Assembly (NCBI GenBank): GCA_947449035.1
Contig: CANFQC010000013.1
Location: 1-49,834 of the forward strand
Origin: Actinomycetota bacterium
GTDB lineage: Bacteria; Actinomycetota; Actinomycetes; S36-B12
Reading direction: 5' to 3'
Length of the DNA stretch: 49,834 nt
Shown: piece by piece, positions 18,187 through 28,896 of the stretch
How the letters are laid out: every line of letters starts with the position of its first letter
How positions within the stretch are numbered: position 1 is the stretch's first letter
Translations under genes and position numbers: made by a program
The notes under the pieces: model-generated
Databases searched by the model: none
What the model was told of the DNA's origin: nothing
Seen by the model: the letters and a program-made list of their open reading frames with translations, nothing else

Positions 18187-18585
18187 ATGCCGGCCGAGAA
18201 CGAGCAACCTGAGAACGAGAAGCCCGAACTTTCCGCGCAGCAGGAGAAGCATGCCTGGGACGCCATCGTCGCTGATCTCTCCGGCACGCTCGATATCGGC
18301 GATCTCGTCCCGACTCCCGATCCCGTCATCGACGAACTGCTCGAACCAGAAGGTGACTACGTACCGCCCCATCCCCCGCCGTTGAAAGCACCCCGCGACG
18401 CCGTCGCGCGATTTGCGTGGGCAGGCGCGCTGGGCGGCCCGGTCTTCGTCGTCGTGGCCTACGCCATGGATCTCGGCCGCTGGATCGGCGCTGCAGGAAT
18501 CCTCGCAAGCATTGCCGGCTTTGCCACGCTGGTGGCTCGTATGCCGCATGAGCGCGACAGCGACGACGACGGAGCCGTGGTCTAA
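18187..18585 (+). CDS. Small conserved actinobacterial membrane protein, function unknown
   Basis: This 132-residue protein has an acidic, proline-rich N-terminal half that should be cytoplasmic (rich in E, D and P; PPHPPP near residue 61). Two hydrophobic segments follow (about 73-93 and 97-117) and a charged tail. I do not recognise a characterised family; similar proteins occur near glucokinase genes in actinobacteria. It is co-transcribed with the hydrolase (1 nt gap). Its stop TAA overlaps the glucokinase stop on the other strand in a CTAA tetramer. Confidence 0.7.
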   Translation: MPAENEQPENEKPELSAQQEKHAWDAIVADLSGTLDIGDLVPTPDPVIDELLEPEGDYVPPHPPPLKAPRDAVARFAWAGALGGPVFVVVAYAMDLGRWIGAAGILASIAGFATLVARMPHERDSDDDGAVV

Positions 18586-19538
18586 AGAGCTGCGCGTCGG
18601 GCGATATCGGCAGAGCCGATCAGGCCTGCATCGTTACCGAGTGACGCCACGCGAATCTGCGGCATTGGTCGCAGATCGCCACCGGGCATCTGCTCCGCGA
18701 GTCGCGTGCGTGCAGGATCCAACAGGAGATCACCGGCCTCCGAGACACCGCCGCTGATCACGAACGCTGCCGGATCAAGAACAGCCGTGAGGTCAGCAAG
18801 ACCGGTGCCGAGCCACTCGCCACAGATGCGGAAGGCCTCGACTGCGACGGGGTCGCCGGCGATGGCTGCCTGGGTGACATGCAGACCTTCAATACCGTCG
18901 GGAGTGCCGTCACCGAGTGAGCGCAGCAGTGATGCTTCGGCGGGGCGTTCGGCGGCAAGTTCACGTGCCTGCCTGACGAGCGCCGTGCCACTTCCGTACT
19001 GCTCCCAGCAGCCGAGTCGACCGCAACCGCATTGACGACCGCCGGGCACGACGGTGATGTGACCAATTTCGGCAGCCCCGCCTGTCGCGCCACGAAGCAT
19101 GGTGCCTCCGACGATGACTCCGCCGCCGATTCCGGTGCCGACTGTGACAACAGTGAGATCGTCGACATCAGCACCGGCACCGAACACGAACTCGCCCCAG
19201 GCCGCTGCATTGGCGTCGTTCTCGGCAATAACCGTGACTCCGAGGTCTGCCTCGAGAATTGCGCGGACTTCAACTCGCGACCACTTCAGATTTGGCGCCC
19301 ACAGCACTGTGGACCTGGTGTTCTCGACCTGGCCGGCGATGCCCAGTCCGACGCCGACGACGGGCACCGAGGATTCGGCCATGAGTTCGCGTACGACCTC
19401 GGCGACGACAGCCAGCACGGCTTCGGGGTCGTGAGCGGGAGTGGGGCGTCGAGCCGTGGTGAGCACGTTTCCGGCGTCGTCGACCAGGCCAGCGAGGATT
19501 TTCGTCCCGCCGACGTCGATGCCAATGGAGTTGCTCAC
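18582..19538 (-). CDS. glk: ROK-family glucokinase
   Basis: This 318-residue ROK kinase has the ATP loop DVGGTKI at the N-terminus, the sugar-binding and catalytic segment ENDANAAAWGE, the phosphate loop VGTGIGGG, EIGH, and the zinc-binding CGCGRLGCWEQY. It should phosphorylate glucose with ATP. In Streptomyces the homologous glkA also takes part in carbon catabolite control (family knowledge). The start is GTG, 6 nt after TAGGCT. The first three bases of that hexamer are the stop codon of the preceding gene, so glk has its own promoter at the end of the upstream operon. Confidence 0.94.
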   Translation of the reverse strand: MSNSIGIDVGGTKILAGLVDDAGNVLTTARRPTPAHDPEAVLAVVAEVVRELMAESSVPVVGVGLGIAGQVENTRSTVLWAPNLKWSRVEVRAILEADLGVTVIAENDANAAAWGEFVFGAGADVDDLTVVTVGTGIGGGVIVGGTMLRGATGGAAEIGHITVVPGGRQCGCGRLGCWEQYGSGTALVRQARELAAERPAEASLLRSLGDGTPDGIEGLHVTQAAIAGDPVAVEAFRICGEWLGTGLADLTAVLDPAAFVISGGVSEAGDLLLDPARTRLAEQMPGGDLRPMPQIRVASLGNDAGLIGSADIARRAAL

Positions 19539-19544
19539 GGCTAC

Positions 19545-19550
19545 AGCCTA
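19545..19550 (-). promoter_or_regulatory. -10 hexamer TAGGCT of glk overlapping a stop codon
   Basis: TAGGCT lies 6 nt before the glk GTG. Its TAG is the stop codon of the gene ending at 19548. Confidence 0.55.
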
Positions 19551-19883
19551 GAACCCTTGACGTTCCACGGAGATCCACGTGATCTCACGAGGGGCACGCG
19601 GGGAGGTCGGCTGACTGCGCACGCCCTGGACGAGGGACGTGCCCTTGCAGATCAGGCAGTCAGGGTGCTCACGGGGATCGCCGTGATCGGCGTGCGGGGC
19701 GAGCACGAGTTCAGATGCCCAGTCGAACAACTGCTGGGCACCGGCAATGAGTGAGCCAAGGCTCATGCCGGACTCAGCCGAGCCAAGGTTGGTCGAGCCG
19801 GGAGTCGTCGATGAATCACCGGAAGCGGGATCCCCTGCAGAGGAATCGCCAGAGAACCACCATGGAGTCGAGCGATCAGCCAT
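19548..19883 (-). CDS. Small conserved actinobacterial protein with HPDCLICK motif
   Basis: This 111-residue protein has a Ser/Gly/Pro-rich, probably disordered N-terminal half. The conserved part has LIAGAQQLFDWASE and a short cysteine motif, HPDCLICK, that could bind metal. No catalytic family is recognised. From memory it corresponds to the Rv2183c type of protein. The ATG at 19883 has a good Shine-Dalgarno (GGAGGAG) and overlaps the end of the ArsA-like gene by 8 bases, so SRPBCC, ArsA-like and this gene form one operon. The conserved operon suggests a shared role, which is unknown. Confidence 0.72.
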   Translation of the reverse strand: MADRSTPWWFSGDSSAGDPASGDSSTTPGSTNLGSAESGMSLGSLIAGAQQLFDWASELVLAPHADHGDPREHPDCLICKGTSLVQGVRSQPTSPRAPREITWISVERQGF

Positions 19884-20922
19884 TGCTCCTCCACACATCG
19901 GGATCAGGTGCGAGCTCAATTCTGAGCCCTGCCGGCGTTGCGACAGCCCGCACGATGATGCAACGGCGCAGAACCGACGGCAATTCGCGCACTCGTGTCA
20001 CGCCATCGATCTCGATAATGACTCGATCGTCAGCGCGACCAATGCGCAGTTCACCGCGGGCGGGAATGTGCACCGGAAAGTTCCAGGCGAACCCCGTTTC
20101 CGTCGACTCGACTCTCTCGGAATCCGACTCGGCGTGATGACTCCAAACGGGGCGGTTCTTCTTGACCACGCGCAATCGCGTCACGACCGCGTCACCGTGT
20201 TGCTCGCGCAGGGGCAATATGCGAGTGGGAATGGTCAACGAGCTTTCCACGATGGCTCGGGCTTGGCGACGACGAGATGAGGCCCAGGACTTCGGCCAAT
20301 CATCTTTCTCGCGTGGCACTTGATTCACGTAGATCAGGTCGACATCGACGCCGTAAAGGGAAGCGATCAGTGCCGCGCTCTCGATCTCTCGAATGCTGCG
20401 ATCATCGGGCAAGCACACAAGTCGGATTGCCGTATCGGCACTCTGAAGACATTCGCGAATTCGTTCCAGCTCTGCACGCAGCTGGCCCAGCGGCGCGTCA
20501 ACATCGTCGCGCGCTACGGCCATGGCCGGAGTCATCAAGGCGGCCGCAAGCACGTCAAGGGTGTCGATCGTCATAAGAAGTCGTGCGAGATGGTCGAGCG
20601 GGCCTACGTCAACGACGACGAAGTCAATCTCTTGATCATTTGCGCATTCCGCGATTGCAGCCAGCGCCAGGAACTCGTCAATGCCCGGCCCGATGGCGAG
20701 CTCCTCGGGCAGGACTCGTTCTGATTCCCGAAGCACCAAGATGTCGGCAACAAGAGCGCCAAGCCACTGCCCGGCAGCTGCGCGGGCAACCGAGGCCTCA
20801 CGCACATTGCCCAGGTCGATGAGTTGAACACGAGCACCATCAGCAACGGCCTGCAGACCGGTCGCGCGAGCGATGGTGCTGGTGCCAGCACCACCGGTGC
20901 CGCTAAGAAGCAGAAGTCGCAC
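19876..20922 (-). CDS. ArsA-like P-loop protein with degenerate Walker A
   Basis: This 348-residue protein of the ArsA/GET3 superfamily carries a C-terminal ArsA-type HSP20-like domain (segment FPVHIPARGELRIGR onward). The N-terminal loop is SGTGGAGTST. Compared with the family pattern GKGGVGKST, both lysines (the signature lysine and the Walker A lysine, residues 9 and 14 here) are threonine. A DVGPLDH segment follows in the Walker B/switch region. ATP hydrolysis is therefore doubtful, although binding is possible. The start is GTG 20922, with GGAG just upstream, and overlaps the SRPBCC gene by 20 bases. From memory the neighbour order matches Rv2183c-Rv2185c. Confidence 0.85.
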   Translation of the reverse strand: MRLLLLSGTGGAGTSTIARATGLQAVADGARVQLIDLGNVREASVARAAAGQWLGALVADILVLRESERVLPEELAIGPGIDEFLALAAIAECANDQEIDFVVVDVGPLDHLARLLMTIDTLDVLAAALMTPAMAVARDDVDAPLGQLRAELERIRECLQSADTAIRLVCLPDDRSIREIESAALIASLYGVDVDLIYVNQVPREKDDWPKSWASSRRRQARAIVESSLTIPTRILPLREQHGDAVVTRLRVVKKNRPVWSHHAESDSERVESTETGFAWNFPVHIPARGELRIGRADDRVIIEIDGVTRVRELPSVLRRCIIVRAVATPAGLRIELAPDPDVWRSNG

Positions 20923-21358
20923 CGGACTCCACACGCTTCTTCAGGCCCTTGAGAGCTGTCTCGACGATGACCTTCTCGGCTTTGCGCTTGATCATCCCGA
21001 TCATCGGGATCTTGACGTCGACCGCGAGCTTGTACTCGACGGTTGTCGAGCCGTTGCCGTTGTCAGTGAGGATGTAGGCGCCGTCCATCGCGGTGAGCAC
21101 ATTAGCCTTAGTGAGTTTCCAGGTGACCTTATGGTCACCTTCCCAGTCGTACTCGAGTTCGTACGTGTCCTTGATCGGACCGGACGCCAGTTGGAAGCGC
21201 GCATCGACCGGACGGCGATCCTCTTCGTAGATGCTGAGGATCTTCACCGAGGTAATGCCATCGCTCCAGTCGGGGTAGGCCACGAGATCGGCAATCACCG
21301 CCATGATCTGGGCGGGTGAGGCATCGATGACGATGCTGGACTGCGTCTGCTCGGCCAT
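20903..21358 (-). CDS. SRPBCC-family (START/polyketide cyclase-like) lipid-binding protein
   Basis: This 151-residue protein has the typical N-terminus of the SRPBCC family (SSIVIDASPAQIMAVIADL, then YPDW), a YELEYDWEGDHKVTW strand region and a long C-terminal helix rich in Lys and Val. The fold forms a hydrophobic pocket for lipids or other ligands; no ligand can be named. It is the first gene of the operon with the ArsA-like and HPDCLICK proteins. The ATG lies 6 nt after TAGCCT, so the start is leaderless. From memory it corresponds to Rv2185c. Confidence 0.88.
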   Translation of the reverse strand: MAEQTQSSIVIDASPAQIMAVIADLVAYPDWSDGITSVKILSIYEEDRRPVDARFQLASGPIKDTYELEYDWEGDHKVTWKLTKANVLTAMDGAYILTDNGNGSTTVEYKLAVDVKIPMIGMIKRKAEKVIVETALKGLKKRVESGATSAS

Positions 21359-21392: not shown

Positions 21393-22172
21393 TCAGACCT
21401 CGAGCACGTAGGGGACGCCCGTTCCGTGGAAGTGCCCGACGTTTAGGCATTCGGTGCGCCCGATCCGAAATCGCGGCTGCAAGGGCTGATGCACATGGCC
21501 GAACAGCGCATAGTCGGGCTGTACTCGCTCGATGTACTCGCGCACTGCAGCGCTGCCTATCTCAAAGCGTCGGGCCACGACGTCGTAGTTGAGCTCAGGC
21601 ACCTTGGGCGGGATATGAGTGAAGAGGATGTCGACCTCACCTAAGCCGGCGATCTTGGCCGCATAGTCCTCGGGAGTGAGTTCATAAGGAGTGCGCATGG
21701 GGCTCACGAGTCCGCCTCCAACGAAGCCAAGGCGAAGGCCCCCATACTCGACCACCTCGCCATCGACCACTCGGTGACCCTCCCGCAAGAAGTCGGGCCA
21801 CAAGCTCGGGACGTCGACATTGCCGTAGGTCAACAGGGCGGGAGTCGGCATTGCGGCGAAGAGCTCGGCGTACTGCGCGGCCACCATCCCCTCGAGAACT
21901 GCCCAGCGATCCTTCGGGTCGACGATGCCTCGCCCAGCCCAGGCCGCCGCACTGATCTCACGGGCGTCCTCGAACCGACCGGCCGTGCGAGCCGCGATAT
22001 ACGCCCGAGTGTGATCAGGCCCGAAGAGATCAGCGTGGATACCCCGTTCGGGGTTGTCGTAATCGAGGAACAAGATCAGGTCGCCAAGGCAGACGAAGAG
22101 GTCGGCCCCGTCACCGGCGCGGGCGAGTTCCTCGGCGGCACCATGTACATCGCTGACGACATGGATCCGCAT
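21393..22172 (-). CDS. Calcineurin-like metallophosphoesterase
   Basis: This 259-residue protein has the metallophosphoesterase motif set: DVHG at residues 8-11, GDLI, the GNVD asparagine motif, THIPP and a C-terminal GHVHQP. The enzyme should hydrolyse phosphoesters with two metal ions. The substrate is unknown and no signal peptide is present. The weak -10 CATTGT lies 6 nt before the ATG. The gene is divergent from fadD. The ATG at 22172 fits the family start, with the first metal motif eight residues in. Confidence 0.88.
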   Translation of the reverse strand: MRIHVVSDVHGAAEELARAGDGADLFVCLGDLILFLDYDNPERGIHADLFGPDHTRAYIAARTAGRFEDAREISAAAWAGRGIVDPKDRWAVLEGMVAAQYAELFAAMPTPALLTYGNVDVPSLWPDFLREGHRVVDGEVVEYGGLRLGFVGGGLVSPMRTPYELTPEDYAAKIAGLGEVDILFTHIPPKVPELNYDVVARRFEIGSAAVREYIERVQPDYALFGHVHQPLQPRFRIGRTECLNVGHFHGTGVPYVLEV

Positions 22173-22239
22173 GTGCCCACAATGCCATGACTCGAATATC
22201 TACTTGCCCGAACCTCCCTGAGCGGGGCGAGGAATCGCG

Positions 22240-22245
22240 TAACGT
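22240..22245 (+). promoter_or_regulatory. Candidate -10 hexamer TAACGT of fadD
   Basis: TAACGT is followed after about 22 nt by the Shine-Dalgarno GAGGAG (22268-22273) and the GTG at 22280. This would give a leader of roughly 28 nt. Confidence 0.4.
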
Positions 22246-22279
22246 GATCGGCAAGAAAGCCCACATTGAGGAGACGGCA

Positions 22280-24082
22280 GTGCTGCGCGAATTCACCACC
22301 CCGGCCCGGGTGCACCCACCCGTGAATGGCTGCGTTGTCGACTACATCCTCGACAATGCCCGGCTATACCCGCAGATGGCCACGATGAGCGTCGAGCGCG
22401 ATGGCATCTGGCACGACGTCACGTCAGTGCAGTTCCTTGACGAGGTACGCGCACTGGCCAAGGGCCTGATCGCTAATGGCCTCGAGGCCGGTCAGCGCAT
22501 CGCGATCATGTCGCGCACCCGCTACGAGTGGACGTTGCTGGACTACGCCGTCTGGTACGCCGGCGCGATCAGCGTGCCCGTCTACGAAACCTCCTCGGCC
22601 GAGCAACTGGAGTGGATCCTCACCGATTCGGGCGCCACCGCAATCGTCGTCGAGAGCATGAAGAACAAGCGACTCTTCGACGAGGTGTCATCACGCACTC
22701 CCGATGTACGCAACTGCTGGGTGATCGAGAGTGACGATTTGTCGCTCCTGAATGCATCCGGCATGTCAGTCAGCGACGAGACACTCGAGGACCGCCGCGC
22801 GACCCTCAATCCTGACTCTGTCGCGACCTTGATCTATACGTCTGGCACCACCGGCCGACCCAAGGGCTGCGTGCTCACCCACAAGAACTTCATGTTCGAG
22901 GTGCAAAACGTCGTGCATGGCCTGCCCGATGTTTTCCTGCAGAAGGACTCCTCGACCCTGCTCTTCCTTCCCATCGCGCACGTGTTCGGTCGCGCGATCC
23001 AGCATGGCTGCGTGCTCGCTCGCGTGCGCATGGGGCACTCCCCTGACATCACCAACCTGCTGCCTGCATTGGCGGCGTTCAAGCCGACCTTCCTGCTCGC
23101 TGTACCGCGCGTCTTCGAAAAGGTCTACAACTCCTCGCAGCAAAAGGCCGTAGCCGCAGGCAAGGGCCACATCTTCGACACCGCGGCGCAGGTGGCCATT
23201 GATTACAGCACTGCGCAGGAGAACGGCCGCCCAGGCATCATGCTCTCGCTTAAGCACAAGGTGTTCGACAAGCTCGTGTACTCGAAGCTGCGTGCGGCCC
23301 TCGGCGGCAAGGTTGAGTGGGCGATCTCCGGTGGCGCTCCCCTGGGCGAACGCCTCGGTCACTTCTACCGCGGCATCGGCATCACCATCCTCGAGGGCTA
23401 CGGCCTCACCGAGACCACCGCGGCTGTCACTGTCAATCGACCCGATGCGCTGCGCATCGGAAGTGTTGGCCAGCCGATTCCGGGAACAATCGCCCGCGTG
23501 GGCGCCGATGGCGAGCTGCTCTGGAAGGGCGCACAGGTCTTCCCCGGCTACTGGAACAATCCGGAAGCCACCATGGAGGTCATCGACTCTGAGGGCTGGT
23601 TCCATTCCGGTGACCTCGGCGAGATCGATGACGACGGCTTCGTGCGCATTACCGGCCGCAAGAAGGAGATCCTGGTGACCGCCGGTGGCAAGAATGTCGC
23701 GCCGGCCGTGCTTGAGGATCGCCTTCGCGGTCACTGGCTCGTCTCGCAGTGCATGGTCGTGGGTGACGCACAGCCGTTCATCGCCGCACTCGTCACCATC
23801 GACCGCGACACTCTTCCCGCCTGGCTGAGCATGCATAACAAGCCTGCTGACACCACTCTTGAGTCACTCGTCAACGACGACGAACTGCGCGCGAGCGTGC
23901 AAGAGGCCGTTGACGATGCGAATAAGTCGGTCTCCCATGCCGAGGCAATCAAGAAGTTCGCGATCTTGCCCGTTGACTGGACAGAGGCGGGCGGCCAGCT
24001 GACCGCGAAGCTCAGTCTCAAGCGCGGTGTCGTGATGAAGGAATCAGCCAACGAGGTAGCCGCGCTCTACGCAAAGGACTAA
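22280..24082 (+). CDS. fadD: Long-chain fatty-acid-CoA ligase (FadD15 type)
   Basis: This 600-residue AMP-forming ligase activates long-chain fatty acids with ATP and CoA. The AMP-binding motif is YTSGTTGRPKG. YGLTETTAAVTV, HSGDLGEID and the C-terminal GRKKEILVTAGGKNV hinge also fit the family. I placed the start at GTG 22280: GAGGAG lies just upstream and the N-terminus then matches related proteins. The frame is open to 22187, but that part has no family features. It is divergent from the phosphoesterase gene and followed, after 26 nt, by the GT87 gene. From memory this is the position of fadD15 (Rv2187) in mycobacteria. Confidence 0.94.
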   Translation: MLREFTTPARVHPPVNGCVVDYILDNARLYPQMATMSVERDGIWHDVTSVQFLDEVRALAKGLIANGLEAGQRIAIMSRTRYEWTLLDYAVWYAGAISVPVYETSSAEQLEWILTDSGATAIVVESMKNKRLFDEVSSRTPDVRNCWVIESDDLSLLNASGMSVSDETLEDRRATLNPDSVATLIYTSGTTGRPKGCVLTHKNFMFEVQNVVHGLPDVFLQKDSSTLLFLPIAHVFGRAIQHGCVLARVRMGHSPDITNLLPALAAFKPTFLLAVPRVFEKVYNSSQQKAVAAGKGHIFDTAAQVAIDYSTAQENGRPGIMLSLKHKVFDKLVYSKLRAALGGKVEWAISGGAPLGERLGHFYRGIGITILEGYGLTETTAAVTVNRPDALRIGSVGQPIPGTIARVGADGELLWKGAQVFPGYWNNPEATMEVIDSEGWFHSGDLGEIDDDGFVRITGRKKEILVTAGGKNVAPAVLEDRLRGHWLVSQCMVVGDAQPFIAALVTIDRDTLPAWLSMHNKPADTTLESLVNDDELRASVQEAVDDANKSVSHAEAIKKFAILPVDWTEAGGQLTAKLSLKRGVVMKESANEVAALYAKD

Positions 24083-27023: not shown

Positions 27024-27071
27024 AGCCTATCGGTCGTGCCGTCGGCCAATGTCCGCCCCGTGACGTAGCGT
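27024..27071. promoter_or_regulatory. Divergent leaderless promoters of the zinc-ribbon and exonuclease genes
   Basis: TAGGCT on the minus strand (27024-27029) is 6 nt before the GTG at 27017. TAGCGT on the plus strand (27066-27071) is 7 nt before the GTG at 27079. The whole intergenic region is only 61 bases. Confidence 0.55.
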
Positions 27072-27078
27072 GCACCGC

Positions 27079-28896
27079 GTGATCGACGCCACGCCTCTTC
27101 AGCTCAGCATCGCTGATGCGGGTACCTCCTTGGCCGAGGCCGTGTTCGTCGTCGTCGACCTCGAGACCACCGGTGGCGCTCCGTCCGAAGCCGGCATCAC
27201 CGAGATCGGGGCCGTGAAGGTGCAAGGCGGTGAGGTCATTGGCGAGTTCACCACCTTGGTGAACCCGGGCGTTCCGATTCCCCCCTTCATTGCTTCGCTC
27301 ACTGGCATCACCAACGCAACGGTCGCGTCCGCTCCGCGTTTGGGCACTGCACTTCCAGCCTTTCTGGAGTTCGCCGGCGATGCGATCCTCGTCGCGCATA
27401 ACGCGCCCTATGACATTGGCTTCCTTAAGGGCGCGTGCGCACTTCACGATCAGCCGTGGCGAGGTAATCGAGTGCTCGACACCGCACGCCTGGCACGCGT
27501 GATCTTGCATCGCGATGAAGTGCGCAACTGCAAGCTCGCCACTTTGTCTGCATATTTCCGCACAACTGTCTCCCCTACTCACCGTGCCTTTGACGATGCG
27601 CGAGCAACCGCTGACATCCTGCATCGCCTGATCGAGCGTGTCGGCAATCTCGGGGTGTACTCCGTTGAGGATCTCCAGGCACTGTCAGGTCGTGTGTCCA
27701 CGGCGCAGCGCACCAAGCGACATCTGGCCGACGGCCTGCCCGCCAAGCCCGGCGTCTACGTCTTCAACGACCCCGAGGGCAAGGCGCTTTACGTCGGCAC
27801 CTCGCGCAATATCCGCACGCGCGTGCGCAATTACTTCACTGCCTCGGAACAACGTCGTCGCATGAGCGAGATGATCGGCATCGCTGTATCGGTCACTCCG
27901 ATTGTCTGCGCCACCGCACTCGAGGCGCGCATTCGCGAACTTCGCCTGATCAACGAGCAGCAGCCGCGCTACAACCGCGCATCCCGCAGGGCCGACTCAA
28001 AGCCGTGGGTGAAACTCACAGCCGAGGCCGCACCCCGACTATCGATCGTGAGCACTCTCGCTGACGACATGAGCGATGGCGCGATGTATCTCGGGCCATT
28101 TAGCTCACGTTCTGGCGCGCAGTCGGCGATTGAAGCGATCATGTGTGCATTCCCGGTACGCACGTGCACTCCAAAGCTCGCACGCGCACCGCGCGCAGAA
28201 AGTGCTGGCTGTATTCGCTACGAGTTGGGTAGTTGCGCCGCGCCATGCATGAAAGACGGCGGTCACGACGACTACGCGCGCACCATCGAGCAAGTACGCG
28301 CCGTGTTCAGTGGCGACGCCCGCGCGGTAGTGAGCGCTGTCGAGCAGCGCATGCGTGAGCTATCTGCCGAGACCCGCTTTGAGGATGCCGCCACCTGGCG
28401 CGACTACCTCGCCACCTTCAGCCGCATCAGCATGCGCACTCACGCACTTCGCATGCTTGCCACCAACGCCGAGATCATCGCGGCACGTCCGACAGCCGAG
28501 CGCGGCTGGGAGATTCACTGCATTCGCTATGGCTCACTCGCAGGAGCCATCACTGTCGAACCAGGCGTCGATCCGCGTCCTTCCGTCGAAATCCTCTCTG
28601 ATGCCGCATCGGTGTTCGCGCAACCGGCCACTCCGGTGCCCGCCGGCTTAATCGAGGAAGCGACAGAGTTGCTGAGCTGGCTTGAATCCGAGGGCACGCG
28701 ACTCGTGCGCGTCAGTGACCCACTCTCGATCCCCATGAACTGCGGTGGCGACGCGGCGGCGCATCTGCTCAGCGTGCAAAAGCGCATGCAGCGCAGTTCA
28801 TTGCACGATGCTGACTTCGCGTGGATGTCACGGTATTCACGGCCTGCAGGGCCAGTTGCCTCGGCGTCGGTAAGCCGAATAGGTCACGCGAGCTAA
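27079..28896 (+). CDS. DEDDh exonuclease fused to a UvrC-like GIY-YIG domain
   Basis: This 605-residue protein has a DnaQ-type 3'-5' exonuclease domain (about residues 20-185), with DLET at 27-30, the NAPYD motif and HRAFDDA. A GIY-YIG nuclease domain follows (about 215-295: PGVYVFNDPEGKALYVG), then a UvrC-like cysteine-containing region (CIRYELGSCAAPC). The architecture is typical of actinobacterial Rv2191-like proteins and suggests DNA repair or processing. The in-frame GTG at 27070 overlaps the -10 hexamer, so I place the start at GTG 27079. The stop shares bases with trpD (CTAA). Confidence 0.92.
   Translation: MIDATPLQLSIADAGTSLAEAVFVVVDLETTGGAPSEAGITEIGAVKVQGGEVIGEFTTLVNPGVPIPPFIASLTGITNATVASAPRLGTALPAFLEFAGDAILVAHNAPYDIGFLKGACALHDQPWRGNRVLDTARLARVILHRDEVRNCKLATLSAYFRTTVSPTHRAFDDARATADILHRLIERVGNLGVYSVEDLQALSGRVSTAQRTKRHLADGLPAKPGVYVFNDPEGKALYVGTSRNIRTRVRNYFTASEQRRRMSEMIGIAVSVTPIVCATALEARIRELRLINEQQPRYNRASRRADSKPWVKLTAEAAPRLSIVSTLADDMSDGAMYLGPFSSRSGAQSAIEAIMCAFPVRTCTPKLARAPRAESAGCIRYELGSCAAPCMKDGGHDDYARTIEQVRAVFSGDARAVVSAVEQRMRELSAETRFEDAATWRDYLATFSRISMRTHALRMLATNAEIIAARPTAERGWEIHCIRYGSLAGAITVEPGVDPRPSVEILSDAASVFAQPATPVPAGLIEEATELLSWLESEGTRLVRVSDPLSIPMNCGGDAAAHLLSVQKRMQRSSLHDADFAWMSRYSRPAGPVASASVSRIGHAS

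Follow-up and report, generated by a model that had tools for sequence, protein, structure and literature searches.

Get3-type factors are ATP-driven targeting machines. To our knowledge, Get3d has been described only from photosynthetic lineages. Get3d proteins (AtGet3d, and NosGet3d/All4481; PDB 3igf and 8egk) combine a Get3 core with a C-terminal alpha-crystallin-like domain and lack the CxxC zinc clasp. They have a hydrophobic chamber with lipid-like density and bind a tail-anchored client, and the catalytic residues of some members are partly degenerate (PMC10248533). In NosGet3d itself an arginine replaces the P-loop lysine, yet slow ATP hydrolysis persists, with a kcat of 0.28 per min (PMC10248533). 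Here we describe an actinobacterial family that shares this architecture but is encoded by non-photosynthetic hosts, in a fixed operon with an SRPBCC gene and a DUF5304-type gene.

The whole stretch of DNA analysed (the window) is a 49.8-kb contig from a draft genome of 2.36 Mb in 87 contigs, the closest named relatives of which are uncultured actinobacteria, mostly labelled Nanopelagicales. The features of the three-gene unit and its surroundings are listed in Table 1. As originally predicted, the three genes form a tightly packed operon on the minus strand: the SRPBCC and ArsA-like genes overlap by 32 nt, and the small cysteine gene, which has GGAGG upstream of its ATG, overlaps the stop region of the ArsA-like gene by 8 nt. 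The SRPBCC protein matches PF10604 (Polyketide_cyc2) at 49.2 bits, above the cut-off of 27.4, and the ArsA-like protein matches PF02374 (ArsA_ATPase) at 67.9 bits, above the cut-off of 24.3. The lipid-type neighbourhood that had been proposed is also borne out, with fadD and an acyltransferase present near the unit; a candidate direct role in lipids is suggested by the SRPBCC fold and these neighbours. A promoter and terminator scan of the window gave no excess over shuffled sequences. Beside glk, positions 18187–18585 (+) encode a 132-aa conserved hypothetical protein that occupies the same place from Nanopelagicales to Streptomyces and for which a Pfam search returned zero matches at E values up to 1. 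Elsewhere in the window, a 608-aa frame (27070–28896, +) looks by eye like a DnaQ-type exonuclease followed in one chain by a GIY-YIG region of UvrC/Cho-like type.

Table 1. Positions of the three-gene unit, its internal sites and its neighbours in the window
Feature	Position	Strand	Details
fadD-type acyl-CoA ligase	22187..24082	+	Divergent conserved neighbour; named from sequence reading and synteny
Metallophosphoesterase	21393..22172	-	Upstream, conserved neighbour; PF00149 42.4 bits and synteny
SRPBCC (START-like) protein	20903..21358	-	151 aa; gene 1 of the unit; Polyketide_cyc2 match
ArsA/Get3-like protein, pseudo-ATPase candidate	19876..20934	-	352 aa; GTG start; ArsA_ATPase match
P-loop remnant GTGGAGTST	20875..20901	-	Residues 12–20; both lysines absent; sequence and alignment
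Site of missing switch I segment	20785..20814	-	About residues 41–50; intact relatives have DPAHS and some 50 residues here; alignment
C-terminal alpha-crystallin-like domain	19906..20115	-	About residues 274–343; R-x3-LP-x2-L-x-RC motif; PF17886, model and motif counts
Small cysteine protein (HPDCLICK)	19548..19883	-	111 aa; ATG start; DUF5304/SCO2127 position
H-x2-H-x5-H-x2-C-x2-C motif, candidate metal site	19647..19694	-	Residues 64–79; conserved in the window's family
ROK glucokinase (glk)	18582..19538	-	Next operon gene; TIGR00744 293 bits, cut-off 260

A single-sequence scan of genome contigs gave no match, and an alignment of the SRPBCC protein was used as the query instead. This identified 80 named loci, which range from Nanopelagicales to Streptomyces, Nocardioides, Kribbella and Pseudonocardia, among others, in agreement with the earlier statement that the three genes are kept together across actinobacteria. 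The widely kept order is fadD, metallophosphoesterase, SRPBCC, ArsA-like, small protein, glk, small hypothetical, lipase-like, acyltransferase and pfk. The position of the SRPBCC gene immediately upstream of the ArsA-like gene is conserved. An ArsA-like sequence was counted as an orthologue only if its gene immediately followed an SRPBCC gene, giving 120 non-redundant sequences, among which no fusions between the three genes were found. Some loci carry additional copies: one (L029) has a tandem pair of SRPBCC genes ahead of the ArsA-like gene, and in three Nocardioides-type loci another ArsA-like gene lies some 3 kb away from the unit, on the other strand (L064 1999–3192, L074 1945–3165 and L096 1852–3063). 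Literature searches on Rv2184c, SCO2128 and Get3 pseudoenzymes turned up no study of function.

The ArsA-like protein is predicted to have a Get3/ArsA-type fold, a type associated with the membrane-protein handling that had been proposed. A confident AlphaFold2 model (pLDDT 86.3, pTM 0.86) comprises a Get3-like core followed by a C-terminal domain of seven strands, and in Foldseek searches archaeal TRC40 came first by E value and NosGet3d was best by whole-chain overlap (TM 0.63). Among solved structures, NosGet3d alone aligns with almost the whole family profile. The C-terminal domain is intact, as predicted: it matches Pfam ArsA_HSP20 (PF17886) at 23.0 bits (cut-off 22.5), the same domain is found in 34 of 34 aligned family members, and its R-x3-LP-x2-L-x-RC motif is conserved. 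The zinc-clasp CxxC of cytoplasmic Get3 was found in none of the 120 orthologues; the window protein has DDWPKSW at that place, and a W-x3-W pattern occurs in 61 of them. By profile score, however, the core lies nearer to TRC40 and ArsA1 (E values of 1e-52 to 1e-56) than to NosGet3d (1e-30), and the actinobacterial family is therefore not filed as Get3d despite the shared architecture. It is also distinct from BagA/BagB (Rv3679/Rv3680, PDB 6bs3), mycobacterial and likewise actinobacterial Get3-like proteins that are encoded by different genes: the window protein scores 28 bits against NCBIfam BagA, with a cut-off of 400. A separate BagA/BagB-like Get3-type pair, with P-loop lysines present, lies elsewhere in the window's genome (G000:C22:22154-23988).

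Get3d keeps the intradimer lysine, whereas the window protein has lost both Walker A lysines together with switch I. The alignment confirms the predicted change from the P-loop of relatives, GKGGVGK[ST]T, with threonine at both lysine places, so that the deviant Walker A motif with its two lysines is absent although the glycine-rich turn is retained. The original prediction understated the decay. A deletion takes out the segment containing switch I (D[PA]AHS), leaving no D-x-[AGS]-H, and the switch II consensus is gone too, with DVGPLDHL in place of DCAPTAET. A congeneric genome (G002) has the identical P-loop remnant in an open frame at 68% identity to the window protein; this, together with a dN (0.256) far below dS (1.506; dN/dS about 0.17), shows that the motif is no sequencing error and that the gene is not dead. 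Judging from its sequence, the window protein probably works without ATP, and we infer an absence of hydrolysis.

Both lysines are present in 61 of the 120 orthologues and the site is broken in 59, proportions that reflect deliberate sampling from the window's relatives and Streptomycetaceae and are not natural frequencies. Switch I follows the same division, being present in 61 of 61 intact and 0 of 59 broken sequences. The family shares fold and profile match with Get3, TRC40 and ArsA, and its intact members also share their deviant Walker A motif and switch I, but it differs in its extra C-terminal domain and in the loss of the ATP site from the broken half of the sample. The site is intact in Nocardioides, Kribbella, Mumia, Pseudonocardia, many families of the class survey and part of f9 (apparently Mycobacteriaceae). 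The window's family (f1) has lost both lysines, as have Streptomyces, Kitasatospora and Streptacidiphilus and genomes sampled from f9, f30 and f43; a single lysine is lost in f21, which seems to be Frankia-like (GKGGxGTTT), and in one f9 genome. Streptomyces members have arginine at the P-loop lysine place, and in Kitasatospora and the genera g2, g9 and g10 the P-loop is wholly absent. A degenerate ATPase was thus the right call for the window protein and the wrong one for the family as a whole, because many actinobacterial families are intact. The prediction had also allowed that a majority of homologues with both lysines would point to single-strain decay; about half of the sampled orthologues have them, and decay in a single strain does not hold.

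On a tree of the orthologues made without the P-loop and switch columns, the site changed state five times (both lysines) or four times (the P-loop lysine alone). Intact Get3-like outgroups set the direction of change as loss, and on this reading of the tree the ancestor had both lysines, which were lost repeatedly, each time in particular clades. The window's Nanopelagicales family and Streptomycetaceae are the two largest groups with a broken site. A single origin of their losses was rejected in an AU test on a careful 39-row tree (51.6 log-likelihood units worse, p-AU 0.005). At least two independent losses are therefore well supported by the phylogeny; several long branches make the exact number unsure.

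Within family f1 the locus forms a graded series. The site is intact in g3 and broken in g1, g4, g5, g6, g12 and g14, and the P-loop region is fully gone in g2, g9, g10 and g13. In g2, g9 and g10, where an apparent absence of the ArsA-like gene proved to be an artefact of the first query, there is an open frame with a recognisable C-terminal end, and in g13 only a badly diverged frame. In g7, g8 and g11 the ArsA-like and cysteine genes are both absent and the SRPBCC gene is still there. Strict co-loss of the two genes does not hold: three loci have a C-x-C-P-x-C small protein between the SRPBCC gene and glk without an ArsA-like gene (L055 6411–6785, L059 6420–6791 and L070 6399–6767). Broken copies remain as open frames at the same operon place over whole families, including all Streptomycetaceae examined. 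Their dN/dS was below 0.5 in five of six pairs, the divergent pair L009/L014 giving about 0.49–0.5 at near-saturated sites; intact pairs ranged from 0.07 to 0.31. Broken copies are thus constrained, mostly by purifying selection, yet less so than the tightest intact copies.

The fold is predicted to be retained in broken proteins. Even for a P-loop-less relative (L045; model pLDDT 77), the top Foldseek match was still NosGet3d. Conservation is higher in the C-terminal domain than in the core for most broken clades, whereas most intact clades show the reverse; as a universal mark of loss this shift fails, being a trend with exceptions in intact Mycobacteriaceae-like sequences and one broken subgroup. 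The cysteine of LxRC was likewise rejected as a mark of loss: it is ancestral, and most intact lineages other than the Nocardioides/Kribbella group retain it as well.

The third gene of the window's unit sits between the ArsA-like gene and glk, the position of SCO2127/DUF5304. In Streptomyces the gene at this position matches DUF5304 (PF17230) and has no cysteine motif, so the His/Cys motif of the window protein is absent there. In most intact lineages it encodes CxxCPxC, and seven of ten such members match DUF5304. A direct Pfam match to the window protein was not found, but profile comparison (hhalign) links it to the CxxCPxC form (81.9%, E 1.1e-5) and that form to the Streptomyces form (97.6%, E 3.5e-12), and the window protein probably belongs to the DUF5304 family on the strength of this chain and its position. 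A readable neighbour was available for 59 intact orthologues, and in every case it has a cysteine motif; clear loss of such a motif, in few independent events, is seen only beside broken ArsA-like genes. SCO2126 is glk, and the adjoining gene is therefore taken as SCO2127, which affects glucose uptake, glucokinase and catabolite repression according to a title cited in PMC3871631, and is reported to be needed for OsdR expression (PMC11472566). The description of the unit as an uncharacterised system therefore stands for a conserved actinobacterial operon but not entirely for its small protein.

The proximity of glk raises the idea of a regulatory adaptor, in which the ArsA-like and DUF5304 proteins act on the glk product in carbon catabolite repression. 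The position of the small protein and the record of SCO2127, as far as that title conveys it, speak for such a role. It is weakened by seven relatives (G016, G021, G025, G028, G036, G044 and G051) that have both genes although their genomes contain no close glk orthologue, and by others that have glk but neither gene, and we consider it improbable; the ROK glucokinase is, by this distribution, a neighbour that is dispensable for the unit. One locus (L038), on a contig shared with the G016 locus, has only a glk-like fragment. That the broken site is an artefact of sequencing or assembly, or decay in one strain, would fit a contig from a fragmented draft genome, but the congeneric genome has the same motif and similar losses recur across many independent genomes, cultured Streptomyces among them, which rules this out for practical purposes.

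Concerted loss of the site, its recurrence, purifying selection and the kept C-terminal domain and operon lead us to read the ArsA-like protein as ATP-independent. We tentatively favour a pseudo-ATPase of Get3d architecture that serves, with the SRPBCC and cysteine proteins, as a scaffold or holdase for hydrophobic clients. The ancestor would have been an ATP-driven Get3-type factor, its gene lying between those of the SRPBCC protein and a cysteine-knuckle protein of the DUF5304/SCO2127 kind; several actinobacterial lineages would have discarded the ATP site and kept the protein as scaffold or holdase. Clients would be held in the helical chamber and partners bound by the alpha-crystallin-like domain, with the SRPBCC and cysteine proteins working alongside; we infer both client binding and a physical complex of the three proteins. 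Against the pseudo-ATPase reading, the f1 gene shades to near-unrecognisable or absent, which fits decay as well, and dN/dS in broken pairs exceeds that of intact pairs, reaching about one half in one of them, while the core-versus-domain trend has its exceptions. An eroding relic, its ATPase unneeded and the protein gradually being lost, with residual structural function and the translational coupling of the operon preserving it for a while, would account for the graded series, the long branches of broken copies and their relaxed dN/dS. Open frames under purifying selection over whole families, together with the invariant C-terminal motif, count against it, and we consider it unlikely, if a serious contender.

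NosGet3d gives a further warning, as it hydrolyses ATP slowly despite its arginine. Together with the arginine of Streptomyces members and the glycine-rich turn of the window protein, it favours a weak but functional NTPase or nucleotide sensor in which other residues contact the phosphate. The two threonines and missing switch I in the window, and the lack of any P-loop in Kitasatospora, g2, g9 and g10, speak against this, and we give it little credence. The clasp missing from all orthologues and the CxxCPxC usual in the next gene also invite speculation: a Get3-type machine could have become ATP-independent at least four times, with the conserved function passing to the alpha-crystallin-like domain and the zinc clasp provided in trans by the DUF5304-type CxxCPxC protein encoded next door, its cysteines later dropped in Streptomyces. 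This, too, we regard as a long shot.

These data extend the Get3-plus-alpha-crystallin architecture past photosynthetic lineages, and SCO2127/DUF5304, known from glucose-repression genetics, gains a probable partner. With intact, broken and missing ATP sites at a single locus, the orthologues would reveal what in the Get3d-type architecture is indispensable, and comparing intact Nocardioides or Kribbella with broken Streptomyces as matched pairs lets the need for ATP be tested.
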